Source: Aphanomyces cochlioides (taxonomy: Eukaryota; Oomycota; Saprolegniomycetes; Saprolegniales; Verrucalvaceae). Taken from it: a DNA stretch of 64,000 nucleotides. The notes below the pieces were generated by a model that saw only the letters and a list, made by a program, of their open reading frames with translations, made no database searches and was not told the origin of the DNA. Below, piece after piece: positions 37,597 to 52,858 of this stretch (position 1 is its first letter; every line of letters starts with the position of its first letter). The DNA lies in NCBI GenBank assembly GCA_019828595.1, contig JAHQRK010000001.1, forward strand, positions 1,302,001-1,366,000, in the 5' to 3' direction. The position numbers and the translations under genes are program-made.

Positions 37597-38638
37597 TATC
37601 TCCTACAGAGACCTACAAAGCCATCGCTCCTGCACGCACAATAGCTCTATTCCTCGGCTAAAGCGGCGAGAGGGTATTGCTCGGTCAGCTCGTCCATCAA
37701 CTGAAGAAACAACTGTAGCAACCACAGTGGAAGCATTTTGTTCTGGCTTGCGTGGTGTGCCTCGATCCATCGCTCTTCAAAGCAAAATAATAATAAAATA
37801 GAATAAAATGCAAAAAGAGACCAAAAAGACCTCGCTGACCTTTTTTTGGAAAATGCGATGAAAAAAAGAGACGAGAAGTGTTTTGATTGGCTCCGTCTCT
37901 GTCCGAAAACTACTCGAAAGAGGTCCTAACAAACATGTTAATTGACGACCCTGATTGAATCTTTCATTAAGTGGACCGAGAAGTTCCCTCGGCGGAGCGC
38001 GGCGTGCACACTGAGGTGTTGCCGCAAGTTTGAGAGTTTCGAAGGAATCAGTCACCAACCTCCTGAAAGATTGCCAGTTAACATGCTCTCCATCGTTTCC
38101 CTGCTCCATTGAAGTCACACTTTAATCCAATCATATATTTCTATCTAAACTTTTTAGCCAATCAATTCGCTCTGTCAATGTGATATTTAGTGGAACAACC
38201 ATCGTTTGAAAGCGAGATTTTTCTGATGAAGTCACAGTGTCGTATTCAAAGGATCCTTGAACCTTTGTTATTTTTCAGCAAATTCAAGTGTCGCCCGACC
38301 AATGTCACCAGTAGAGTACAAACATGAAGTTTACCTTAAAGATGATAAAATATAAATTTTGCGGTCATGACCCTGGCCATGACCAAGAAAATAAATCAGA
38401 GATATATTTTCCAAATTGGCTGTTTCTGTATAAATATTCGAGATATATTTAACTCTGGTCATCATACTAATTTTAAGCTAATACAAACACTCGTTGTCAT
38501 CACTCCTGCCAAGGTCAAGACTATCATGCTCAATGATGAGAGCCATCTCGACTGCTAGAGCGGTCATTACAAAGTTTACATGTCTTGTGATGCCTGATTT
38601 AAGCTTGAAAACAAGATTTTCGGTGTCCTATTGCTACA
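37597..38638. other. Gene-poor left flank of the Helitron pair
   Basis: About 1 kb of AT-rich sequence. A 113-codon minus-strand frame (37777-38118) has no recognised motif. Near 38360 there is a tight pair of ATGACC palindrome-like motifs that also occurs in the right flank near 52000. The base just before the Helitron (38638) is A, the expected left target base. Confidence 0.4.
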
Positions 38639-39626
38639 TCTATTACTTAAGGCTCTAACGCAACACGTAAGTACGAGACTAAGTACGAGAGTATTTTTTA
38701 CATACAAACGTCAAGTCAACAAATGAGCAATTTTTATATACTTTATCCAAGTACAAAATGAGCAATTTTTACATACAAACGCCAAGTCAAAAAAAGAGTA
38801 ATTTGAGACAAGTTCGTTCATGCACCCATGATGCTGGACGTGGCAGTTGTCGATAATATTAATAATCAAACAATTCCACATACAAAATGAAAATATTGTC
38901 CTACTATTTAAAATAATACCTGCCAAAGACGAGATGAATGGCAGTTGGGTTTTTCTGGGACGATGCAAGGTGAGATGCATGTCTTAGGATAGCTTCACAC
39001 GGGCAGAAAAGGCCGCTGAATAAGCGGTCAACACACTGTGCAGTAGGGTGACGAGCCCTTTCTGCCACTTTAAGCCATACCCTGGCCAGAGGCTTGGACT
39101 CCGAAAGGCGAATTCCGACGCGATATGCGAATGTAACGAAGTAGGGCCTTTTTGGCTCGAAATACCGGACATTTTCATAGAGCAGCCAGGGACAGCTATA
39201 ACGTGTGTTTTTACTGTATTTTCATATTGACTTTGGACGAGTAAATCCTCTCCCCATAGTTCAACTTTTTTACAGTAAGGGGACAATGTGTAACGTTGGT
39301 TACCACTATTGCAACTGATGGTGCTACTTTTTTTACGGAGTACCACTGTTGATAGTGGGCCTACGGCGAGTAGATTGAAACACTTCAGGGGTGTTTCATG
39401 ATACTTAGCAGGTGTATTACCCAGTATCAAAATTTCAACTCATTGGATGTACGAGTTCAATACGCGATATTAAACAAAGTGAAGTTTAATAAATACCGCG
39501 AACTCTGTACGATTTATGAAAGAAATGAGTAGTATTTTCTGGCAAACCACATTATGTTAAGCTTAAGTGGCGGGACACATATCCACAGTATTTTTACGAT
39601 CCAATCACATTATCATTTTTGTGTTG

Positions 39627-42530
39627 ATGTTTTTGTATGAACATTTGTCTGACGCAGTTTTCTGCGTAGAAAATAACAACTACTCGGCCTCTAAGAAAGG
39701 CAAAGGCAATGGCAATCATGATAATGACAATCAAGGACATGCGATCGATAACTCCGAACCTGGGAAGCAAGCAGAGCGGAATGAAGTGCATACTACCGAA
39801 CAAGAGTCTGCATCAACTGGAGCTAATGGCTGGGCTGTGGATGACGATGCCTTGATGCCTAACGACGAGGCGGCTATGAGAAAGGCGGAGTACAACAAAC
39901 GTGCTCGCGAAAAGAAACGGCATGCTATCGTGGAAGACTTCGACAAAGAGGTGGCTATGAAAAGATCCAAGAAGGCGGAATACAACAAACGTGCTCGCGA
40001 AAAAAAGCACAACACTGAGGTTGCGAATCAAGGGCGGGGTGCCATCATTTTGCACCATACGGACATGGATAAGAGCGACGAAGAGGAAACCAAGGAGGGA
40101 GAAGACAGAATCCATTATCACGCTCAAAGTGACCATCATCTCAAGATTCTGGCAGCTCAGGAGCAAGAAGATCGCGAGCGCACAGTTGACAATCGAAGGA
40201 TCTATGCTGCGCTACAACCTAACCGTATGAATGAAGGAGGTGAAGAAGAAACCAAGGAAGAAGATATTTCCGATGGAAATGTGGATTGCAACACTGACAA
40301 TCAATTACTTGCCTTGGCAAATGCTGATCCTCCGCTAAACGTGGATGTGGATTTGATTGATGTACCTCCTCGCGAGCAAGGATTAAGTCTCCGGAATAAA
40401 CCCAACGGTCGCCCGAAGAAGAAGAGTGGTCACAACAGTGCACGCGTCAGTTTCGATGACTTCGATGAATCATTGGTGCCTCTTCATACTATTGAGCAGC
40501 GTTCGATTTGCCGCCATTGCGAAGCGAAGATTTGGCCAGGCGAAGAAAAGGACTGCTGGGGTGGAGGCACTCGAGTGCTGCCTGTTGCTACCTGGCCTGA
40601 CACACCCGAGTTTCGCGAATACATTGCTTTGTTCAAAACCAGAGGGTTTGTCAATAACACTCGCCGGTACAACGCCCTCTTTGCCTTTACATCTATTGGT
40701 ACCCAAGAAATTATTCACGGCAACGGTGGGCCGAGATCTTATACAATCCAAGGCGCTTTGCATCATTTGATTGGACCACAGTTGCCTGCGGACGAAGAAC
40801 AAGCCAGTTACGCCCAGATCTACATTACGGATCCTGAAACGCAAGCAAGCATACGACGAAGAATGCTTGGGGGAAATCTTAATGTGTCAACTGTGACGAA
40901 AATTCAGCGTCTACTACTACAGCACAACGCGTTCACCCAGCTGTACAAGCATGCGAAGGATATTCCAAAGGATGACGACATGAGATTAGTGCTCACTGCT
41001 CAGCCTCGAAGCAACAGCCGAACGCATAACCTTCCGACGTGTTCTGAAATCGCTGTTCTTTTTTCAGAAACGTCCAAGTCAGGGCGTCATATCTTACTGC
41101 ATGGTATTGATGGCCCCGTACTCAGCGAAGTTCAGCGAAACTATCACGTTGGTAAACATGTGCGTTTGGATCGACAACCTGGGGAACAACGCTTATTTCG
41201 CATTAAGGAATTTCATTCGGCATATGACCCGCTTCAATACCCTTTGCTCTTTCCCACTGGGACTTTGGGGTGGTCGTTTGACAACAAGAGCGGTCGCAAT
41301 CATGAAAACGTGAGTTTGAACGATTATGCTCGGTACCATTTGTACGAGCGCGGTCCATTTTCTCCATTACATGCCAGCGGACCTCTATTTCAAGTGTTTG
41401 CAGTCGACAATTTTGCAAAGGTGGAAAACCAAAGGCTTCGATATATTCGTGACCAAACCAACAACCTCCGCAGCGACACGTACCGCGCACTTCATGACGC
41501 TGTTTCGCATGATGTGGACCTCAGAAGCATTGGAAAAAGGATTGTTTTGCCGTCATCTTACACGGGTGGACCTCGGTACATGAGACAACGTTACCTTGAC
41601 GCCATGGCAATTGTTCGCAAGTTCGGTCGACCAGACCTTTTTATCACTGTGACATGCAATCCAAAGTGGGTTGAAATCGACAGGGAGCTGGAATTGGCGA
41701 AAGACGACTATGGATTTAAACGATCTCCAGCTGATCGACCTGACTTAGTGACGCGCATGTTCCGCCTCAAGCTCTTAGCCATTGAAGCCATGCTGTACAA
41801 GGGGGCAGTTTTGGGTCGACAAGCTGCGTGTGTTCGTGTTGTCGAATTCCAAAAGCGTGGTCTGCCTCATGCCCATATGTTGGTCATATTCACTGGGGAC
41901 GACAAAATCAAGACAGCTGCCGATGTTGACAGTATTATCAGTGCAGAAATCCCCGACAAGGAAAAGAATCCAAGACTGCACGAAATTGTTACAACCTGCA
42001 TGATTCACAAATGCAGCGACCGATGCCTGGAAAACGGGAAGTGCAAGAAAACTTTCCAAAAGCATACTGCAACGAAACATCAGAAGGCAGTGATGGATAT
42101 CCACTCTACCGTCGTCGCCGCTCTTCGGCAGAGCGGCCCTCTGAGTATACCAACCAATATGTTATTCCGTACTGCCCAACGTTGAGTGCCATGTTCGACT
42201 GCCACATCAATGTCGAGGCGTGTACAAGTATATCTGCAGTCAAGTACCTGTACAAGTACATCTACAAGGGCTCAGACCGCTCAAATTATCAAGTTGAGTC
42301 CGGCGAACTTGACGAAATCAAGCAATACCAAGATACCCGCTATGTATCGTGCTGTGAGGCCCTCACACGCATTTTCTCTTTCGACATGTTCAAACGATCT
42401 CACGCTGTCGAGAACCTCGAAATACACTTGGAAGGTGAACATGTTGTATGCATTCTTACCGACCGACCGCCCGATGAGCCCTCAGGAATTGGCAAGGAGG
42501 AACCGGACGAAACTCACCGCGTTTTTTTAA
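39627..42530 (+). pseudogene. Helitron Rep (HUH endonuclease) region, copy 1, broken
   Basis: The frame is open from before 39567 to 42185; 39627 is the first ATG. The N-terminal part is acidic/basic and repeats KAEYNKRAREKK twice (nt ~39888 and ~39975), likely nuclear targeting or DNA binding. A CxxC-type finger (ICRHCEAKIW) follows. The Helitron-like N domain leads to the HUH motif GLPHAHMLVIF near nt 41860. The frame then shifts by one base at an A-run (~42048-42051) into a frame ending at 42541, which carries the catalytic tyrosine motif KYLYKYIYKG (~42245). It shifts back near 42458-42476 (PMSPQELARRNRTKLTAFF) and meets TAA at 42528. Each lesion is inferred from the expected continuity of the Rep protein. 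As written, no full Rep can be made. Confidence 0.8.
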
Positions 42531-42656
42531 CTGTGCCGTGAAAACAGTGATTCACAAGCACTTGCGCGTGAATGTCTGTACCATGATATCCCCGAGCATT
42601 TCGTATGGAACAAAAAGCTCCGCAAGTGGACATCACGTAAAAGGGGTGGTGATCGT

Positions 42657-44672
42657 ATGATCGGGAGGATGCTGACGGTGTCACCCCGCTCGGGAGACTG
42701 TTTTTTTATGCGAATGCTCTTATGCTACCGACGAGGTCCGACATCGCACGAAGATTTGCGAACCGTCAATGGCGTGGTTCATCTGACGTTCAAGTCAGCC
42801 GCACTTGCCCTTGGCTTTCTTGAAAATGACGAGGAATGGCTAACCTGCATGCGAGAAGCAACTGAAACAGCAACTCCCTATGAACTCCGAACACTTTTTG
42901 TCAGTATTCTGATTCACTGTGAACCTGCGGACGCACGAGGGCTATGGAACAAATTCGAAGATGAAATGAGGCAAGATTTTCACCGCATGTACCCCGACGA
43001 TTCTCAAAAATCTACAGCTTTCGCAATTCAGGCTTTATCAAGATGCCTCGAGTCGAATGCATCAAGCTTGGATCGTTTTCCGGAGCTTCCACAGCTTGCA
43101 CATTTCGAACAATATTTTGCTCTTGAGGAAACAAACAGGGGGCGTCAATCCAACCGATTAGTGGCTATGGAATCTTCGCACAACCAAGAACAAATCCAAG
43201 GCATTTTGGAAGGCAAGTCTACGATGACCGAAGAGCACGAGGTCTTCTACAACGACGTTATGAGCGAGATTACGAAGGAAAGAACTGTTCGAAGAGGCAA
43301 AGTATATTTTCTCGAAGGTGAGGGCGGCTTAGGGAAGACGTTCATCTCAAACATTTTACTGGCTCAAGTGCGCTCAATGAACAAAATTGCCTTGGCTGTT
43401 GCTTCGTCCGGACTTGCTGCTCTGAATTTGATCGGAGGTACAACTGCGCATTCGAGATTCTGTCTTCCAAGATCATTGCACGAGCTTAGCCGATGTGACG
43501 TTCGGAAGCAGTCACATCTTGCGGAACTTTTACGTCTCACAGAACTTATCATTTGGGACGAGTGTTCGATGATGCACAAGTATGCTGTGGAGGCCGTTGA
43601 TCACATGCTACAAGATTTGATGGACAACGCGCTTCCTTTTGGTGGAAAGGTCGTCATATTCTCGGGCGACTTCAAGCAAATGCTTCCAGTCATTTTGAAG
43701 GGCACACCTGGGCTAATCCTCGAAGCATGCTTGAAGAACAGCTACCTTTGGAGAAATATCGCACAGTTTCATCTGACGGTGAACATGAGGTTGACCAACA
43801 ACAACTCAGAGAGTGTTCGAGAGTTTGCTGCATTGCTCAAGTCTATTGGTCATGGAACATACCCCACATGTACCGAACTCGGTGCCGATTACATTCGACT
43901 ACCTGATGATTTGGCGATTCCATACAAGTCGCCTGATGATTTGGGGTCATTTTTACACAGCGTCTATCAAGACATGAACAACCTGCGCATCAATGCACTT
44001 AGATCGTACTTTGGATGTCGAGCTATCCTTGCACCCAAACATAGTGTTGTTGCTGACATCAACACAACACTTCTTGAGCGACTCACTTCCGACTGCGAAA
44101 TGACATATTTGTCCGCCGATTCTGTTGCTGACAAACCCAACTCGGACACAAATGCATGCGAGTTCCCCATCGAGTTTCTGAATTCTATAGACATCAACAA
44201 CTTCCCCAGCCACAAGTTGCATTTGAAAGTTGGTTGCCCCATTATTCTGCTTCGTAATTTGTGTACTTCGGAAGGCATGTGCAACGGAACACGTTTAATT
44301 GTTCTTGAGCTGAAAACACGATGTATCAAGGCTCAAATTATGAACGGCTCCCACACGAACAAGATCGTTTACATTCCCCGAACTACTACAATTCACGATG
44401 GTGAGCAAAACAATTACCCATTTGAGCTACGCAGAAGACAATTTCCTGTTCAAGTGGCCTTTGCAATGACGATTCACAAGGCTCAAGGTCAAACGATTTC
44501 TCACGTGGGCGTCTACCTTCCAGAACCCGTCTTCTCGCATGGACAGCTTTACGTCGCCATTTCAAGAGCCCAAGCAAAAGGCAACATTAAGTTTTTGGTC
44601 GCCAATGGACAGTACGATGGACTGCCTGGAATCTACACGAAAAACATTGTGTATCAAGAAGCATTACAATAG
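42657..44672 (+). CDS. Helitron PIF1-like helicase part, copy 1
   Basis: 671 codons from the first ATG; the same frame is open upstream to 42531 and continues the Rep-helicase linker (HDIPEHFVWNKKLRKW). Superfamily 1 motifs are all visible: Walker A GEGGLGKT (~nt 43320), Walker B LIIWDECSMM (~43545), FSGDFKQMLPV (~43660), an Arg-containing VNMRLTNN (~43780), IHKAQGQTI (~44470) and YVAISRAQ (~44550). In Helitrons this domain unwinds the strand released by Rep. Here it is cut off from Rep by a stop, so any product would be a separate helicase. Confidence 0.85.
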   Translation: MIGRMLTVSPRSGDCFFMRMLLCYRRGPTSHEDLRTVNGVVHLTFKSAALALGFLENDEEWLTCMREATETATPYELRTLFVSILIHCEPADARGLWNKFEDEMRQDFHRMYPDDSQKSTAFAIQALSRCLESNASSLDRFPELPQLAHFEQYFALEETNRGRQSNRLVAMESSHNQEQIQGILEGKSTMTEEHEVFYNDVMSEITKERTVRRGKVYFLEGEGGLGKTFISNILLAQVRSMNKIALAVASSGLAALNLIGGTTAHSRFCLPRSLHELSRCDVRKQSHLAELLRLTELIIWDECSMMHKYAVEAVDHMLQDLMDNALPFGGKVVIFSGDFKQMLPVILKGTPGLILEACLKNSYLWRNIAQFHLTVNMRLTNNNSESVREFAALLKSIGHGTYPTCTELGADYIRLPDDLAIPYKSPDDLGSFLHSVYQDMNNLRINALRSYFGCRAILAPKHSVVADINTTLLERLTSDCEMTYLSADSVADKPNSDTNACEFPIEFLNSIDINNFPSHKLHLKVGCPIILLRNLCTSEGMCNGTRLIVLELKTRCIKAQIMNGSHTNKIVYIPRTTTIHDGEQNNYPFELRRRQFPVQVAFAMTIHKAQGQTISHVGVYLPEPVFSHGQLYVAISRAQAKGNIKFLVANGQYDGLPGIYTKNIVYQEALQ

Positions 44673-45144
44673 GCAGGACTCCATAAAACTTCATCCATAA
44701 CTAACAAACGTTATCATGTTCTTACAAATATATACACTGTGTTGTTGTGGAATTGCCGTGACTTCCTGGATCAAGTCCAATTGCATCGTACCGATGAATT
44801 GGACGATAAATCCTCGAGATTAGCTAACCCCAAACTACGCACCTTATACTTAGATTCAACGTTACAGTATTACAAGATGAAGAAGTACGTGGTTGTCAAC
44901 CAACGATGACCTCGATCTACTCATCGATCGCACAGATTGTGCAATCTGAACTTGGGTATATGATTTATCTCCTGACGAAAAAAAAATATTCGTCAGTCAA
45001 CAGTAGCCAATCAGAATCCTCAGCGTTAACTTATTTTTTTTACTTCGAACTGGGCCTGAATCAAATTCAAAATTCATAGTATGGCTTCAAACGTTTCATG
45101 TGTGTGATCAAATCTTTGTTTTTTCCATAGCAAAAACGCTCCAC

Positions 45145-45173
45145 CCAGGGGCGTAGCCCTGGCCTCACCCTAG
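45145..45173 (+). other. Helitron 3' terminal hairpin and CTAG end, copy 1
   Basis: CCAGGG (45145-45150) pairs with CCCTGG (45157-45162) across a 6-nt loop; 7 nt later comes the terminal CTAG. This is the standard Helitron rolling-circle termination signal. The next base is the T of the TC start of copy 2. Confidence 0.9.
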
Positions 45174-46161
45174 TCTATTACTTAAGGCTCTAACGCAACA
45201 CGTAAGTACGAGACTAAGTACGAGAGTATTTTTTACATACAAACGTCAAGTCAACAAATGAGCAATTTTTATATACTTTATCCAAGTACAAAATGAGCAA
45301 TTTTTACATACAAACGCCAAGTCAAAAAAAGAGTAATTTGAGACAAGTTCGTTCATGCACCCATGATGCTGGACGTGGCAGTTGTCGATAATATTAATAA
45401 TCAAACAATTCCACATACAAAATGAAAATATTGTCCTACTATTTAAAATAATACCTGCCAAAGACGAGATGAATGGCAGTTGGGTTTTTCTGGGACGATG
45501 CAAGGTGAGATGCATGTCTTAGGATAGCTTCACACGGGCAGAAAAGGCCGCTGAATAAGCGGTCAACACACTGTGCAGTAGGGTGACGAGCCCTTTCTGC
45601 CACTTTAAGCCATACCCTGGCCAGAGGCTTGGACTCCGAAAGGCGAATTCCGACGCGATATGCGAATGTAACGAAGTAGGGCCTTTTTGGCTCGAAATAC
45701 CGGACATTTTCATAGAGCAGCCAGGGACAGCTATAACGTGTGTTTTTACTGTATTTTCATATTGACTTTGGACGAGTAAATCCTCTCCCCATAGTTCAAC
45801 TTTTTTACAGTAAGGGGACAATGTGTAACGTTGGTTACCACTATTGCAACTGATGGTGCTACTTTTTTTACGGAGTACCACTGTTGATAGTGGGCCTACG
45901 GCGAGTAGATTGAAACACTTCAGGGGTGTTTCATGATACTTAGCAGGTGTATTACCCAGTATCAAAATTTCAACTCATTGGATGTACGAGTTCAATACGC
46001 GATATTAAACAAAGTGAAGTTTAATAAATACCGCGAACTCTGTACGATTTATGAAAGAAATGAGTAGTATTTTCTGGCAAACCACATTATGTTAAGCTTA
46101 AGTGGCGGGACACATATCCACAGTATTTTTACGATCCAATCACATTATCATTTTTGTGTTG

Positions 46162-49065
46162 ATGTTTTTGTATGAACATTTGTCTGACGCAGTTTTCTGC
46201 GTAGAAAATAACAACTACTCGGCCTCTAAGAAAGGCAAAGGCAATGGCAATCATGATAATGACAATCAAGGACATGCGATCGATAACTCCGAACCTGGGA
46301 AGCAAGCAGAGCGGAATGAAGTGCATACTACCGAACAAGAGTCTGCATCAACTGGAGCTAATGGCTGGGCTGTGGATGACGATGCCTTGATGCCTAACGA
46401 CGAGGCGGCTATGAGAAAGGCGGAGTACAACAAACGTGCTCGCGAAAAGAAACGGCATGCTATCGTGGAAGACTTCGACAAAGAGGTGGCTATGAAAAGA
46501 TCCAAGAAGGCGGAATACAACAAACGTGCTCGCGAAAAAAAGCACAACACTGAGGTTGCGAATCAAGGGCGGGGTGCCATCATTTTGCACCATACGGACA
46601 TGGATAAGAGCGACGAAGAGGAAACCAAGGAGGGAGAAGACAGAATCCATTATCACGCTCAAAGTGACCATCATCTCAAGATTCTGGCAGCTCAGGAGCA
46701 AGAAGATCGCGAGCGCACAGTTGACAATCGAAGGATCTATGCTGCGCTACAACCTAACCGTATGAATGAAGGAGGTGAAGAAGAAACCAAGGAAGAAGAT
46801 ATTTCCGATGGAAATGTGGATTGCAACACTGACAATCAATTACTTGCCTTGGCAAATGCTGATCCTCCGCTAAACGTGGATGTGGATTTGATTGATGTAC
46901 CTCCTCGCGAGCAAGGATTAAGTCTCCGGAATAAACCCAACGGTCGCCCGAAGAAGAAGAGTGGTCACAACAGTGCACGCGTCAGTTTCGATGACTTCGA
47001 TGAATCATTGGTGCCTCTTCATACTATTGAGCAGCGTTCGATTTGCCGCCATTGCGAAGCGAAGATTTGGCCAGGCGAAGAAAAGGACTGCTGGGGTGGA
47101 GGCACTCGAGTGCTGCCTGTTGCTACCTGGCCTGACACACCCGAGTTTCGCGAATACATTGCTTTGTTCAAAACCAGAGGGTTTGTCAATAACACTCGCC
47201 GGTACAACGCCCTCTTTGCCTTTACATCTATTGGTACCCAAGAAATTATTCACGGCAACGGTGGGCCGAGATCTTATACAATCCAAGGCGCTTTGCATCA
47301 TTTGATTGGACCACAGTTGCCTGCGGACGAAGAACAAGCCAGTTACGCCCAGATCTACATTACGGATCCTGAAACGCAAGCAAGCATACGACGAAGAATG
47401 CTTGGGGGAAATCTTAATGTGTCAACTGTGACGAAAATTCAGCGTCTACTACTACAGCACAACGCGTTCACCCAGCTGTACAAGCATGCGAAGGATATTC
47501 CAAAGGATGACGACATGAGATTAGTGCTCACTGCTCAGCCTCGAAGCAACAGCCGAACGCATAACCTTCCGACGTGTTCTGAAATCGCTGTTCTTTTTTC
47601 AGAAACGTCCAAGTCAGGGCGTCATATCTTACTGCATGGTATTGATGGCCCCGTACTCAGCGAAGTTCAGCGAAACTATCACGTTGGTAAACATGTGCGT
47701 TTGGATCGACAACCTGGGGAACAACGCTTATTTCGCATTAAGGAATTTCATTCGGCATATGACCCGCTTCAATACCCTTTGCTCTTTCCCACTGGGACTT
47801 TGGGGTGGTCGTTTGACAACAAGAGCGGTCGCAATCATGAAAACGTGAGTTTGAACGATTATGCTCGGTACCATTTGTACGAGCGCGGTCCATTTTCTCC
47901 ATTACATGCCAGCGGACCTCTATTTCAAGTGTTTGCAGTCGACAATTTTGCAAAGGTGGAAAACCAAAGGCTTCGATATATTCGTGACCAAACCAACAAC
48001 CTCCGCAGCGACACGTACCGCGCACTTCATGACGCTGTTTCGCATGATGTGGACCTCAGAAGCATTGGAAAAAGGATTGTTTTGCCGTCATCTTACACGG
48101 GTGGACCTCGGTACATGAGACAACGTTACCTTGACGCCATGGCAATTGTTCGCAAGTTCGGTCGACCAGACCTTTTTATCACTGTGACATGCAATCCAAA
48201 GTGGGTTGAAATCGACAGGGAGCTGGAATTGGCGAAAGACGACTATGGATTTAAACGATCTCCAGCTGATCGACCTGACTTAGTGACGCGCATGTTCCGC
48301 CTCAAGCTCTTAGCCATTGAAGCCATGCTGTACAAGGGGGCAGTTTTGGGTCGACAAGCTGCGTGTGTTCGTGTTGTCGAATTCCAAAAGCGTGGTCTGC
48401 CTCATGCCCATATGTTGGTCATATTCACTGGGGACGACAAAATCAAGACAGCTGCCGATGTTGACAGTATTATCAGTGCAGAAATCCCCGACAAGGAAAA
48501 GAATCCAAGACTGCACGAAATTGTTACAACCTGCATGATTCACAAATGCAGCGACCGATGCCTGGAAAACGGGAAGTGCAAGAAAACTTTCCAAAAGCAT
48601 ACTGCAACGAAACATCAGAAGGCAGTGATGGATATCCACTCTACCGTCGTCGCCGCTCTTCGGCAGAGCGGCCCTCTGAGTATACCAACCAATATGTTAT
48701 TCCGTACTGCCCAACGTTGAGTGCCATGTTCGACTGCCACATCAATGTCGAGGCGTGTACAAGTATATCTGCAGTCAAGTACCTGTACAAGTACATCTAC
48801 AAGGGCTCAGACCGCTCAAATTATCAAGTTGAGTCCGGCGAACTTGACGAAATCAAGCAATACCAAGATACCCGCTATGTATCGTGCTGTGAGGCCCTCA
48901 CACGCATTTTCTCTTTCGACATGTTCAAACGATCTCACGCTGTCGAGAACCTCGAAATACACTTGGAAGGTGAACATGTTGTATGCATTCTTACCGACCG
49001 ACCGCCCGATGAGCCCTCAGGAATTGGCAAGGAGGAACCGGACGAAACTCACCGCGTTTTTTTAA
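46162..49065 (+). pseudogene. Helitron Rep (HUH endonuclease) region, copy 2, broken
   Basis: Same structure and same three lesions as copy 1: the one-base shift in the A-run at ~48583-48586, the return shift near 48993-49011 and the TAA at 49063-49065. The shared damage shows that the breaks predate the duplication. The HUH and tyrosine motifs are present but lie in different frames. Confidence 0.8.
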
Positions 49066-49191
49066 CTGTGCCGTGAAAACAGTGATTCACAAGCACTTGC
49101 GCGTGAATGTCTGTACCATGATATCCCCGAGCATTTCGTATGGAACAAAAAGCTCCGCAAGTGGACATCACGTAAAAGGGGTGGTGATCGT

Positions 49192-51207
49192 ATGATCGGG
49201 AGGATGCTGACGGTGTCACCCCGCTCGGGAGACTGTTTTTTTATGCGAATGCTCTTATGCTACCGACGAGGTCCGACATCGCACGAAGATTTGCGAACCG
49301 TCAATGGCGTGGTTCATCTGACGTTCAAGTCAGCCGCACTTGCCCTTGGCTTTCTTGAAAATGACGAGGAATGGCTAACCTGCATGCGAGAAGCAACTGA
49401 AACAGCAACTCCCTATGAACTCCGAACACTTTTTGTCAGTATTCTGATTCACTGTGAACCTGCGGACGCACGAGGGCTATGGAACAAATTCGAAGATGAA
49501 ATGAGGCAAGATTTTCACCGCATGTACCCCGACGATTCTCAAAAATCTACAGCTTTCGCAATTCAGGCTTTATCAAGATGCCTCGAGTCGAATGCATCAA
49601 GCTTGGATCGTTTTCCGGAGCTTCCACAGCTTGCACATTTCGAACAATATTTTGCTCTTGAGGAAACAAACAGGGGGCGTCAATCCAACCGATTAGTGGC
49701 TATGGAATCTTCGCACAACCAAGAACAAATCCAAGGCATTTTGGAAGGCAAGTCTACGATGACCGAAGAGCACGAGGTCTTCTACAACGACGTTATGAGC
49801 GAGATTACGAAGGAAAGAACTGTTCGAAGAGGCAAAGTATATTTTCTCGAAGGTGAGGGCGGCTTAGGGAAGACGTTCATCTCAAACATTTTACTGGCTC
49901 AAGTGCGCTCAATGAACAAAATTGCCTTGGCTGTTGCTTCGTCCGGACTTGCTGCTCTGAATTTGATCGGAGGTACAACTGCGCATTCGAGATTCTGTCT
50001 TCCAAGATCATTGCACGAGCTTAGCCGATGTGACGTTCGGAAGCAGTCACATCTTGCGGAACTTTTACGTCTCACAGAACTTATCATTTGGGACGAGTGT
50101 TCGATGATGCACAAGTGTGCTGTGGAGGCCGTTGATCACATGCTACAAGATTTGATGGACAACGCGCTTCCTTTTGGTGGAAAGGTCGTCATATTCTCGG
50201 GCGACTTCAAGCAAATGCTTCCAGTCATTTTGAAGGGCACACCTGGGCTAATCCTCGAAGCATGCTTGAAGAACAGCTACCTTTGGAGAAATATCGCACA
50301 GTTTCATCTGACGGTGAACATGAGGTTGACCAACAACAACTCAGAGAGTGTTCGAGAGTTTGCTGCATTGCTCAAGTCTATTGGTCATGGAACATACCCC
50401 ACATGTACCGAACTCGGTGCCGATTACATTCGACTACCTGATGATTTGGCGATTCCATACAAGTCGCCTGATGATTTGGGGTCATTTTTACACAGCGTCT
50501 ATCAAGACATGAACAACCTGCGCATCAATGCACTTAGATCGTACTTTGGATGTCGAGCTATCCTTGCACCCAAACATAGTGTTGTTGCTGACATCAACAC
50601 AACACTTCTTGAGCGACTCACTTCCGACTGCGAAATGACATATTTGTCCGCCGATTCTGTTGCTGACAAACCCAACTCGGACACAAATGCATGCGAGTTC
50701 CCCATCGAGTTTCTGAATTCTATAGACATCAACAACTTCCCCAGCCACAAGTTGCATTTGAAAGTTGGTTGCCCCATTATTCTGCTTCGTAATTTGTGTA
50801 CTTCGGAAGGCATGTGCAACGGAACACGTTTAATTGTTCTTGAGCTGAAAACACGATGTATCAAGGCTCAAATTATGAACGGCTCCCACACGAACAAGAT
50901 CGTTTACATTCCCCGAACTACTACAATTCACGATGGTGAGCAAAACAATTACCCATTTGAGCTACGCAGAAGACAATTTCCTGTTCAAGTGGCCTTTGCA
51001 ATGACGATTCACAAGGCTCAAGGTCAAACGATTTCTCACGTGGGCGTCTACCTTCCAGAACCCGTCTTCTCGCATGGACAGCTTTACGTCGCCATTTCAA
51101 GAGCCCAAGCAAAAGGCAACATTAAGTTTTTGGTCGCCAATGGGCAGTACGATGGACTGCCTGGAATCTACACGAAAAACATTGTGTATCAAGAAGCATT
51201 ACAATAG
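49192..51207 (+). CDS. Helitron PIF1-like helicase part, copy 2
   Basis: 671 codons, one residue different from copy 1: Cys instead of Tyr just after the Walker B segment (codon containing G50117). All helicase motifs are kept. The change lies three residues after DECSMM and could affect the fold; its effect is unknown. Confidence 0.85.
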   Translation: MIGRMLTVSPRSGDCFFMRMLLCYRRGPTSHEDLRTVNGVVHLTFKSAALALGFLENDEEWLTCMREATETATPYELRTLFVSILIHCEPADARGLWNKFEDEMRQDFHRMYPDDSQKSTAFAIQALSRCLESNASSLDRFPELPQLAHFEQYFALEETNRGRQSNRLVAMESSHNQEQIQGILEGKSTMTEEHEVFYNDVMSEITKERTVRRGKVYFLEGEGGLGKTFISNILLAQVRSMNKIALAVASSGLAALNLIGGTTAHSRFCLPRSLHELSRCDVRKQSHLAELLRLTELIIWDECSMMHKCAVEAVDHMLQDLMDNALPFGGKVVIFSGDFKQMLPVILKGTPGLILEACLKNSYLWRNIAQFHLTVNMRLTNNNSESVREFAALLKSIGHGTYPTCTELGADYIRLPDDLAIPYKSPDDLGSFLHSVYQDMNNLRINALRSYFGCRAILAPKHSVVADINTTLLERLTSDCEMTYLSADSVADKPNSDTNACEFPIEFLNSIDINNFPSHKLHLKVGCPIILLRNLCTSEGMCNGTRLIVLELKTRCIKAQIMNGSHTNKIVYIPRTTTIHDGEQNNYPFELRRRQFPVQVAFAMTIHKAQGQTISHVGVYLPEPVFSHGQLYVAISRAQAKGNIKFLVANGQYDGLPGIYTKNIVYQEALQ

Positions 51208-51678
51208 GCAGGACTCCATAAAACTTCATCCATAACTAACAAACGTTATCATGTTCTTACAAATATATACACTGTGTTGTTGTGGAATTGCCGTGACTTC
51301 CTGGATCAAGTCCAATTGCATCGTACCGATGAATTGGACGATAAATCCTCGAGATTAGCTAACCCCAAACTACGCACCTTATACTTAGATTCAACGTTAC
51401 AGTATTACAAGATGAAGAAGTACGTGGTTGTCAACCAACGATGACCTCGATCTACTCATCGATCGCACAGATTGTGCAATCTGAACTTGGGTATATGATT
51501 TATCTCCTGACGAAAAAAAAATATTCGTCAGTCAACAGTAGCCAATCAGAATCCTCAGCGTTAACTTATTTTTTTTACTTCGAACTGGGCCTGAATCAAA
51601 TTCAAAATTCATAGTATGGCTTCAAACGTTTCATGTGTGTGATCAAATCTTTGTTATTTCCAAAGCAAAACGCTCCAC

Positions 51679-51707
51679 CCAGGGGCGTAGCCCTGGCCTC
51701 ACCCTAA
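51679..51707 (+). other. Helitron 3' terminal hairpin and CTAA end, copy 2
   Basis: CCAGGG (51679-51684) and CCCTGG (51691-51696) form the same stem as copy 1; CTAA (51704-51707) ends the element and is followed by T, the expected right target base. Confidence 0.9.
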
Positions 51708-52858
51708 TACACTCTAAATTGTGAACGGGGTGAAAAATGTATCTATTTTTCCAAATCTATTCGAAATCTATAGCCAATCAGAATCGAGTATTTGTCTTCT
51801 TGACAAAAACAAACACAAAACACACATTCAAAACTTTACTTTATTGAATGTACTTTCATATTACACTTGGACTCACTATACCTGAATAGTATTTCAATTT
51901 TTTGTCAAAAATACAAATTTCAGTGAAAAAGACAATATTGTGAAAGAAAAATGAAAAAACAGAATATTTTATCCTGGTCATAAAACGACCAAAAATGAAC
52001 TATGACCGCAGTCATGACCGAGAAAACTCCATATAGTTCCGAAAAATATATCTGCAAAATATAATATTTTAAGGGTAAAATCTCACGAATGGAATTCTGC
52101 ATGAACGAAATATGATTATTGAGATGGACTCTATTCTTTTACGTAACCATTGATCCATAAACAAAATCCATCCTCGGCAACTCTATGGTGATGTCTCTCA
52201 CTTGGCTTATGATATCTTTTCGTCGCCTTCCTGAAGAATCTATCGAAGAACTTGAGTCCCATTGGATTTCGTGCTCAGCTTATCCGGTACCGGATATCTG
52301 CCAATGAAACTTCACGAATTCCCCGGACAATGCAAACTCTGTCCTTTCGACGCTAAAGTACTCTCAGGACTCGGCATTTTCAGCACAAGATCCAGCTATC
52401 AACAACTTCACTCTTAATGCAACTTACTACAATCTTGATCATGGGCCAATTCCTTCCCCAGCGCTTAAAATCTTCACAGGTGTTCGGTTTGAGATTGTTG
52501 CATAAACATTCTGACCAATCAGATTACCTGATGAATCAATTGATGTGCAGATCCACAGAAACGAGTCCAGCGAATAGCTCTCCTACAAGAAATTTTCACC
52601 ATAATAAGCTCCAAATCAAGCGCTTCGTGCATGGTATACCGCGGCCGCGGGCGTGGACTCCTTGATGGCCATGCGTAAAAACACGTTGTCGATGGTAAAC
52701 CACGATTGGATCAGTGTATCCGGATCCGGTTGAGAAAACTGATGATGATTGGATGAAAATACAGCTGGATAGCCAATCAGATAGCGGCACTTTCCCCACC
52801 ACTAATGACACCATGGGCACATTTTCGTTTGGGGAACAGTCAATTCGTCGGTGGCCCC
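51708..52858. other. Right flank of the Helitron pair and MPP beta upstream region
   Basis: 1,151 bp. The first ~430 bp is AT-rich, with ATGACC motifs near 52000. From ~52160 the composition is more coding-like, but stops break every frame and I recognise no protein. It includes the palindrome ATCCGGTACCGGAT (52282-52295) and a TATCCGGATCC motif at 52717. Confidence 0.4.
52717..52729. promoter_or_regulatory. TATCCGGATCCGG motif upstream of MPP beta
   Basis: Lies 130-142 bp upstream of the chosen MPP beta ATG and shares the TATCCGGAT core with the sites upstream of NSA2 and the VAMP7-like gene. Role inferred. Confidence 0.3.

Follow-up and report, generated by a model that had tools for sequence, protein, structure and literature searches.

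Here, we propose that the tandem Helitrons of the oomycete Aphanomyces cochlioides probably go back to a founding Helitron joint, which homologous exchange then copied while it homogenised the bodies of the units and left their outer ends alone. The proposal starts from two head-to-tail units in a 64,000-nt stretch of DNA (C1:1302001-1366000 in a 76.2 Mb assembly; hereafter the window) and extends to arrays elsewhere in the genome, where C and a number is a contig label and suffixed names (C1m, C3a, C16m and so on) are individual arrays. We prefer this reading because a concatemer accounts for the bodies of the window pair and not for its tails, and independent insertion for the tails and not for the bodies. 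The same reading would also account for the marks inside three other arrays (C10, C12, and an array of 1.42-kb units on C1).

The window element is a canonical Helitron (Helitron1) with a Helraiser-like Rep and PIF1 helicase. Both units start with TC, end in CTRR and carry a hairpin 11 nt before the 3' end (Table 1), and they encode a Rep (HUH) with an HAH motif (PF14214, E 3.9e-52) and a PIF1-type helicase (PF05970, E 1.2e-63), with matches to Helraiser (7lcc) at E 1.9e-75 for Rep and E 4.4e-116 for the helicase. An earlier, sequence-only reading had described two Helitrons with both ends of each present, joined seamlessly as CTAG/TC at 45173/45174 and lodged in a single A/T site (A38638, T51708), and direct reading of the window bears this out, the units being joined with zero intervening bases. 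The pair spans 13,069 bp and sits exactly between the A and the T of a dispersed repeat, with no target duplication or loss. When both flanks were joined and used as the query, at least 23 other places matched the right flank and ran across the insertion point, and the pre-insertion site TATTG(C/T)TACATACACTC is unbroken in all ten fetched paralogues of the right-flank repeat. Among the copies read, this target repeat, whose start is that same site, has differing left flanks; in the window it directly adjoins a second dispersed repeat on its left.

Table 1. Features of the Helitron pair and its insertion site, in window positions (position 1 is the first letter of the window).
Feature	Position	Strand	Remark
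Left flank TATTGCTACA	38629..38638	+	same sequence as the beginning of the right-flank repeat; its last base is the host A in the A/T site
Helitron unit 1	38639..45173	+	6535 bp, TC...CTAG
Unit 1 Rep frame, Helitron_like_N / Rep domain	39567..42185	+	HxH at residue 768
Unit 1 overlapping frame, Rep stretch with YKYIYKG	41930..42541	+	frame differs from neighbouring frames
Unit 1 PIF1-like helicase frame	42531..44672	+	open frame, domain match
Unit 1 tail	45121..45173	+	holds 4 of the 6 unit 1/unit 2 differences
Unit 1 3' hairpin	45145..45162	+	6-bp stem, 6-nt loop, 11 nt before end
Seamless junction CTAG/TC	45170..45175	+	45173 is the last base of CTAG, 45174 the first of TC
Helitron unit 2	45174..51707	+	6534 bp, TC...CTAA
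Unit 2 Rep frame	46102..48720	+	protein identical to unit 1
Unit 2 counterpart of the YKYIYKG frame	48465-49076	+	as in unit 1
Unit 2 helicase frame	49066..51207	+	1/713 residues differs from unit 1
Unit 2 3' hairpin	51679..51696	+	structure same as unit 1 hairpin
Rest of interrupted repeat	51708..51819	+	first base is the host T

The Rep-helicase frame shifts at the same places in both window units, at about residues 773-778 and 909-914 (numbering of an A. euteiches relative), on either side of the YKYIYKG stretch. Since both units carry the same frame changes, the doubling came after them. Nor is the change private to the window, as the C10 units likewise change frame near the first place; in a comparison of 15 units, residues 1-1236 align in a single frame in two, C11m unit 2 and C8 unit 5, of which the former has no stop. 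C8 unit 5 contains a stop and was rejected as an open Rep-helicase frame. The window copies may hold a short intron in place of real frame breaks; if the breaks are real, whatever enzyme was at work probably came from other copies. Rep is closest to proteins of A. euteiches (69-89% identity), and a neighbouring host gene, Kelch-MYND, is 98% identical to a protein of that species. A single cluster of A. euteiches Rep proteins represents 104 sequences, a hint of recent amplification there too.

How alike are the two units? They differ at six places (43582, 44609, 45121, 45128, 45132 and 45173), that at 45132 being one base absent from unit 2. The bodies have two differences in 6460 aligned sites (0.03%, or 99.97% identity) and the heads are equal, so that exchange is visible at the tail only. 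There, 3 of 74 sites and one indel differ, four of the six differences crowd into the last 53 bp (P under an even spread, 6e-8), and one unit ends in CTAG, the other in CTAA. Between 44609 and 45121 lie 511 bp with no difference. Hence the near-identity that the sequence-only reading had emphasised holds for the bodies and fails at the 3' ends, and its description of the pair as a readable fossil of Helitron replication is right as to the seamless joint and the complete ends, but the fossil is not pristine. Its inference that the event was recent is upheld.

Comparison with other loci gives these figures a scale. Among 14 long units aligned, bodies of different loci differ by 1.0-2.4% (3.4% in one pair), and within arrays divergence falls to 0.03% in the window, 0.04% between C10 units 3 and 5, and 0.13% in both C1m and C3m; C10 unit 1 stands 0.42-0.46% from units 3 and 5, mostly in its head. 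The tail divergence of the window pair lies in the between-locus range (0 to 6 of 73-75 sites), and the unit 1 tail type is also found elsewhere (0/75 differences to C3a). Like the window pair, C10 units 3 and 5 differ little in the body (3/6684) and more in the tail (4/74). When the best 40 genomic matches to a 1.87-kb piece of unit 1 were scored, unit 2 was the closest after unit 1 itself; among eight fetched matches the window pair has 4 mismatches and the next best 11.

The window pair is the smallest member of a large set. The genome search for the junction that the sequence-only reading had recommended returned 70 matches to the exact 30-nt pattern in 23 clusters, with none for the backward control; six of the clusters, with 30 junctions, are of a 1.95-kb type on C35, C48, C53 and C68. 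A 29-nt head pattern gave 410 matches with at most 3 mismatches. Such counts are lower bounds, and variant-end arrays escape the exact pattern. The variant-end arrays comprise C10 (4 junctions), C12 at 0.82 Mb (7 junctions without the last G), C1 at 2.70-2.75 Mb (at least 28 junctions, spaced 1415-1423 bp with one gap of 2835) and C8 near 0.27 Mb (spacing 611 bp). Arrays thus span 2 to about 30 units of 0.6-11 kb each. Of the 67 exact 3' ends among the matches listed, seven are the C12 junctions and T comes next in 59 of the remaining 60, one of which, on C8, is a junction with a changed head.

If joints are copied along an array, inner ends should be alike and outer ends may keep a history of their own, and C10 reads in this manner. 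Its units measure, in order, 6876, 4392, 6759, 4389 and 6762 bp, and the 6.8-kb and 4.4-kb bodies cannot be aligned with each other in the stretch immediately preceding the tail, at some 212 to 527 nt from the end of the unit. Yet the last 149 nt are identical in all four inner units, including two bases unseen in the other tails read, whereas unit 5 has the 6.8-kb body with a different tail; one head is common to units 2-5 and another occurs in unit 1. In C12, all seven junctions read CTA/TC and lack the same terminal G, although the eight units differ in length, and the outer end reads CTAG/T. Among exact pattern matches the G-less form occurs at no other place, and patterns with A, C or T for that G gave 0 matches. 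C12 tails and heads fall into two classes, the tail class agreeing with the class of the following head at 7/7 junctions; so it does at 4/4 junctions in C16m, whereas in C8 the two disagree, and in C5 the inner tails are invariant and the inner heads vary. Finally, in the 1.42-kb array, of which 6 of about 30 heads and 6 tails were read, the first head has TTAAGG and all five inner heads TTAAAG, and a single base sets four inner tails (left and middle) apart from both the terminal tail and the last inner one.

Nine arrays have three or more heads, and in seven of them the head that deviates most is the outermost one (P 8e-4). Leaving out C1m, for which the head of the first full unit, behind three 127-bp head-only units, was counted as the first, makes this 6 of 8; likewise, the first head of C3m was taken after the 18-bp head duplicate with which that array begins. 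The exceptions are C25 and C12, the latter having two inner classes. The outermost tail is a clear outlier in 2 of 6 testable arrays (P 0.40); among the other four, C1m and C3m are invariant, one ties, and in C12 the outermost tail is not the greatest outlier. These distances, over head and tail lengths of 160 and 110 bp that were our choice, were computed with free outer ends; the outer 3' ends of C12b, C16, C25, C8 and C9 were not found, and the tail of C8 unit 6, which was cut at 9000 bp with its 3' end not found, was dropped. Tails have a rank correlation of 0.29 with the head of the next unit and 0.03 with their own head (54 pairs that are not independent, and an end effect in the alignments), which would indicate a weak tail-to-next-head linkage across all arrays. 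Together, these comparisons support the view that inner joints are copies, the evidence from heads being stronger than that from tails.

In light of these marks, how might the arrays have been built? A canonical Helitron inserted between the A and T of a dispersed repeat, after which Helitron end-joining would have produced one precise CTAG/TC joint, whether through a joined-end circle, a short concatemer, or joining to the nicked left end of a resident, any of which may have been the founding reaction. The joint would then have been copied and reshaped by homologous exchange, among tandem units and with other members of the family, by unequal crossover, gene conversion, or circle integration by crossover. 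Such exchange would even out the bodies and multiply the inner tail-head module, and a separate history would persist in the outermost head and at times in the outermost tail. In the window, the bodies would have been equalised or newly duplicated, and the tail of one unit would be of other origin. Counting against exchange as the sole picture, C89, with its 2035-bp units, and the 1.95-kb arrays resemble simple concatemers, and more than one route to arrays may operate, C89 being one that fits a rolling-circle concatemer.

The strongest competitor, which we regard as possible but doubtful, is that a rolling-circle concatemer or a dimeric joined-end circle entered the A/T site in one event and that conversion later overwrote one tail. 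The sequence-only reading held that this model and insertion at a resident's left boundary both give exactly the observed structure; in fact the concatemer fails on the tails and independent left-boundary insertion on the bodies. The near-identity of the bodies, the equal heads and the rank of unit 2 as closest match (among the best 40 scored) are what a concatemer would leave, and the tail type of unit 1 exists elsewhere, at C3a. Evenly spaced arrays also exist: at C89 the spacing is 2034-2038 bp and the tails are identical in the 8 junctions and the terminal end read, and on C35, C48, C53 and C68 it is 1917-1961 bp, mostly 1952-1954. But the window units are not identical throughout, tails included, as a simple concatemer would have them; later conversion could mask such identity, at the cost of a separate, extra event whose tract was probably short, given the 511 difference-free bp. 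Arrays with unlike bodies but common inner ends (C10, C12, C5) are left unexplained, and even C89 is not uniform: ahead of the first 2035-bp unit lies sequence that matches the full-length element in its 3' part.

A particular form of exchange deserves mention as a tentative idea, which we hold a little less likely still: joined-end circles may enter resident Helitrons by homologous crossover and not by transposase, so that the outermost head and tail remain those of the resident and the inner joints copy the joint of the circle. If true, circle crossover would be a second, transposase-independent route of Helitron integration and array building, recorded by the arrays described here.

Insertion of a second Helitron from elsewhere into the A/T at the left boundary of a resident, with no later recombination, is improbable. 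Unlike neighbours such as those of C11m (3945 vs 7421 bp) and C6a (1340 bp beside about 6.6 kb) would suit it, and in the available text of PMC5148889 it is an option offered for a triple in Metarhizium. However, it predicts body divergence of 1.0-3.4%, against the 0.03% of the window pair, and, short of a subsequent conversion of some 6 kb, is refuted for the window. Chance hits would be negligible, as there are a few hundred boundaries (the 410 head matches) and, by extrapolation from the window, some 5.3 million AT sites. Moreover, the A/T left boundary is palindromic, so simple targeting should give head-to-head as often as head-to-tail pairs, and a search for head-to-head pairs gave 0 genome matches within 3 mismatches. 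This expected rarity and the lack of a head-to-head product led us to reject random left-boundary insertion as a general source of arrays. That the assembly doubled one unit is very hard to credit, as six differences and unlike 3' flanks separate the two units, and other arrays (C5, C8, C10, C12) have clearly unequal unit lengths.

Tandem Helitrons, and both models of the sequence-only reading, are already in print. Joined-end Helitron circles have been shown experimentally, and genomic tandems have been readable as concatemer integration or as left-end insertion; what this genome adds is a set of natural arrays, ranging from 2 units to about 30, in which private tail and head marks let such models be distinguished by sequence. 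In the literature searched, mostly by titles and the starts of abstracts, we found no description of tandem Helitron arrays in Aphanomyces. The arrays also show a transposon turning satellite-like. Transposon-derived satellite arrays are homogenised by unequal exchange, which leaves inner units alike and edges different; here, unlike in such satellites, the repeat joint is a pair of transposon ends and the edges are readable.

Rolling-circle amplified Helitron arrays in plants were reportedly the subject of work by Xiong, Dooner and Du in 2016. As described in the available part of PMC12628747, the plant arrays of Xiong et al. 2016 have several 5' ends and one 3' end. The present arrays are likewise head-to-tail and include cases of several 5' ends ahead of one 3' end (the 92-bp units of C3a and the 127-bp units of C1m), but many units here, full-length ones included, keep both ends. 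For Helraiser / Helibat1, the accessible text of PMC5876387 describes precise joined-end (head-to-tail) circles and cites head-to-tail junctions and tandem Helitrons in plants and bats. The circle joint in that account is the same kind of joint as seen here, and the elements share matching Rep and helicase, TC and CTRR ends, a hairpin and A/T insertion; unlike Helraiser, the present elements have an oomycete host, chromosomal joints that are arrayed and have mosaic ends, and frame changes in both window copies. In Metarhizium acridum, three tandem copies were described, the same two models proposed and a joined-end PCR product reported (Chellapan et al. 2016; PMC5148889, as far as its available text goes). 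Unlike the window pair, those elements are Helitron2-like with other termini, and the same portion of that paper holds no analysis of exchange between units.

Several further observations concern individual arrays. The arrays of about 1.95-kb units lie at C35:296-321 kb, C48:1-16 kb, C53:65-78 kb and C68:0.3-14 kb; three of them lie no farther than about 16 kb from the end of their contig, opposed orientations occur on C35 and C48, and a subtelomeric location is possible. The 1.42-kb array (C1:2698204-2747518) is satellite-like and measures about 49 kb in total, made up of an 8.2-kb first stretch, read in part, whose right part matches the full-length helicase region, and about 29 units after it. 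Head-only repeats stand ahead of a full unit in C3a (92 bp; C3:62997-63209) and C1m (127 bp; C1:1026604-1027014); these micro-units were considered as nested insertions and rejected, as what follows the last 3' end does not continue an interrupted element. At C5:1230403-1230643, the upstream tail of a junction repeats the Helitron 3' end in inverted (palindromic) form. C8 unit 4 (11.2 kb) resembles the adjacent 7.2-kb unit with some 4 kb duplicated inside it and no junction, which may again point to misaligned exchange. In C6a, a stretch of 9650 bp was rejected as a single unit, as it contains an eroded second junction; about 8.2 kb into the stretch, on C6, a tail cut just past the hairpin leads into a head without its first bases.
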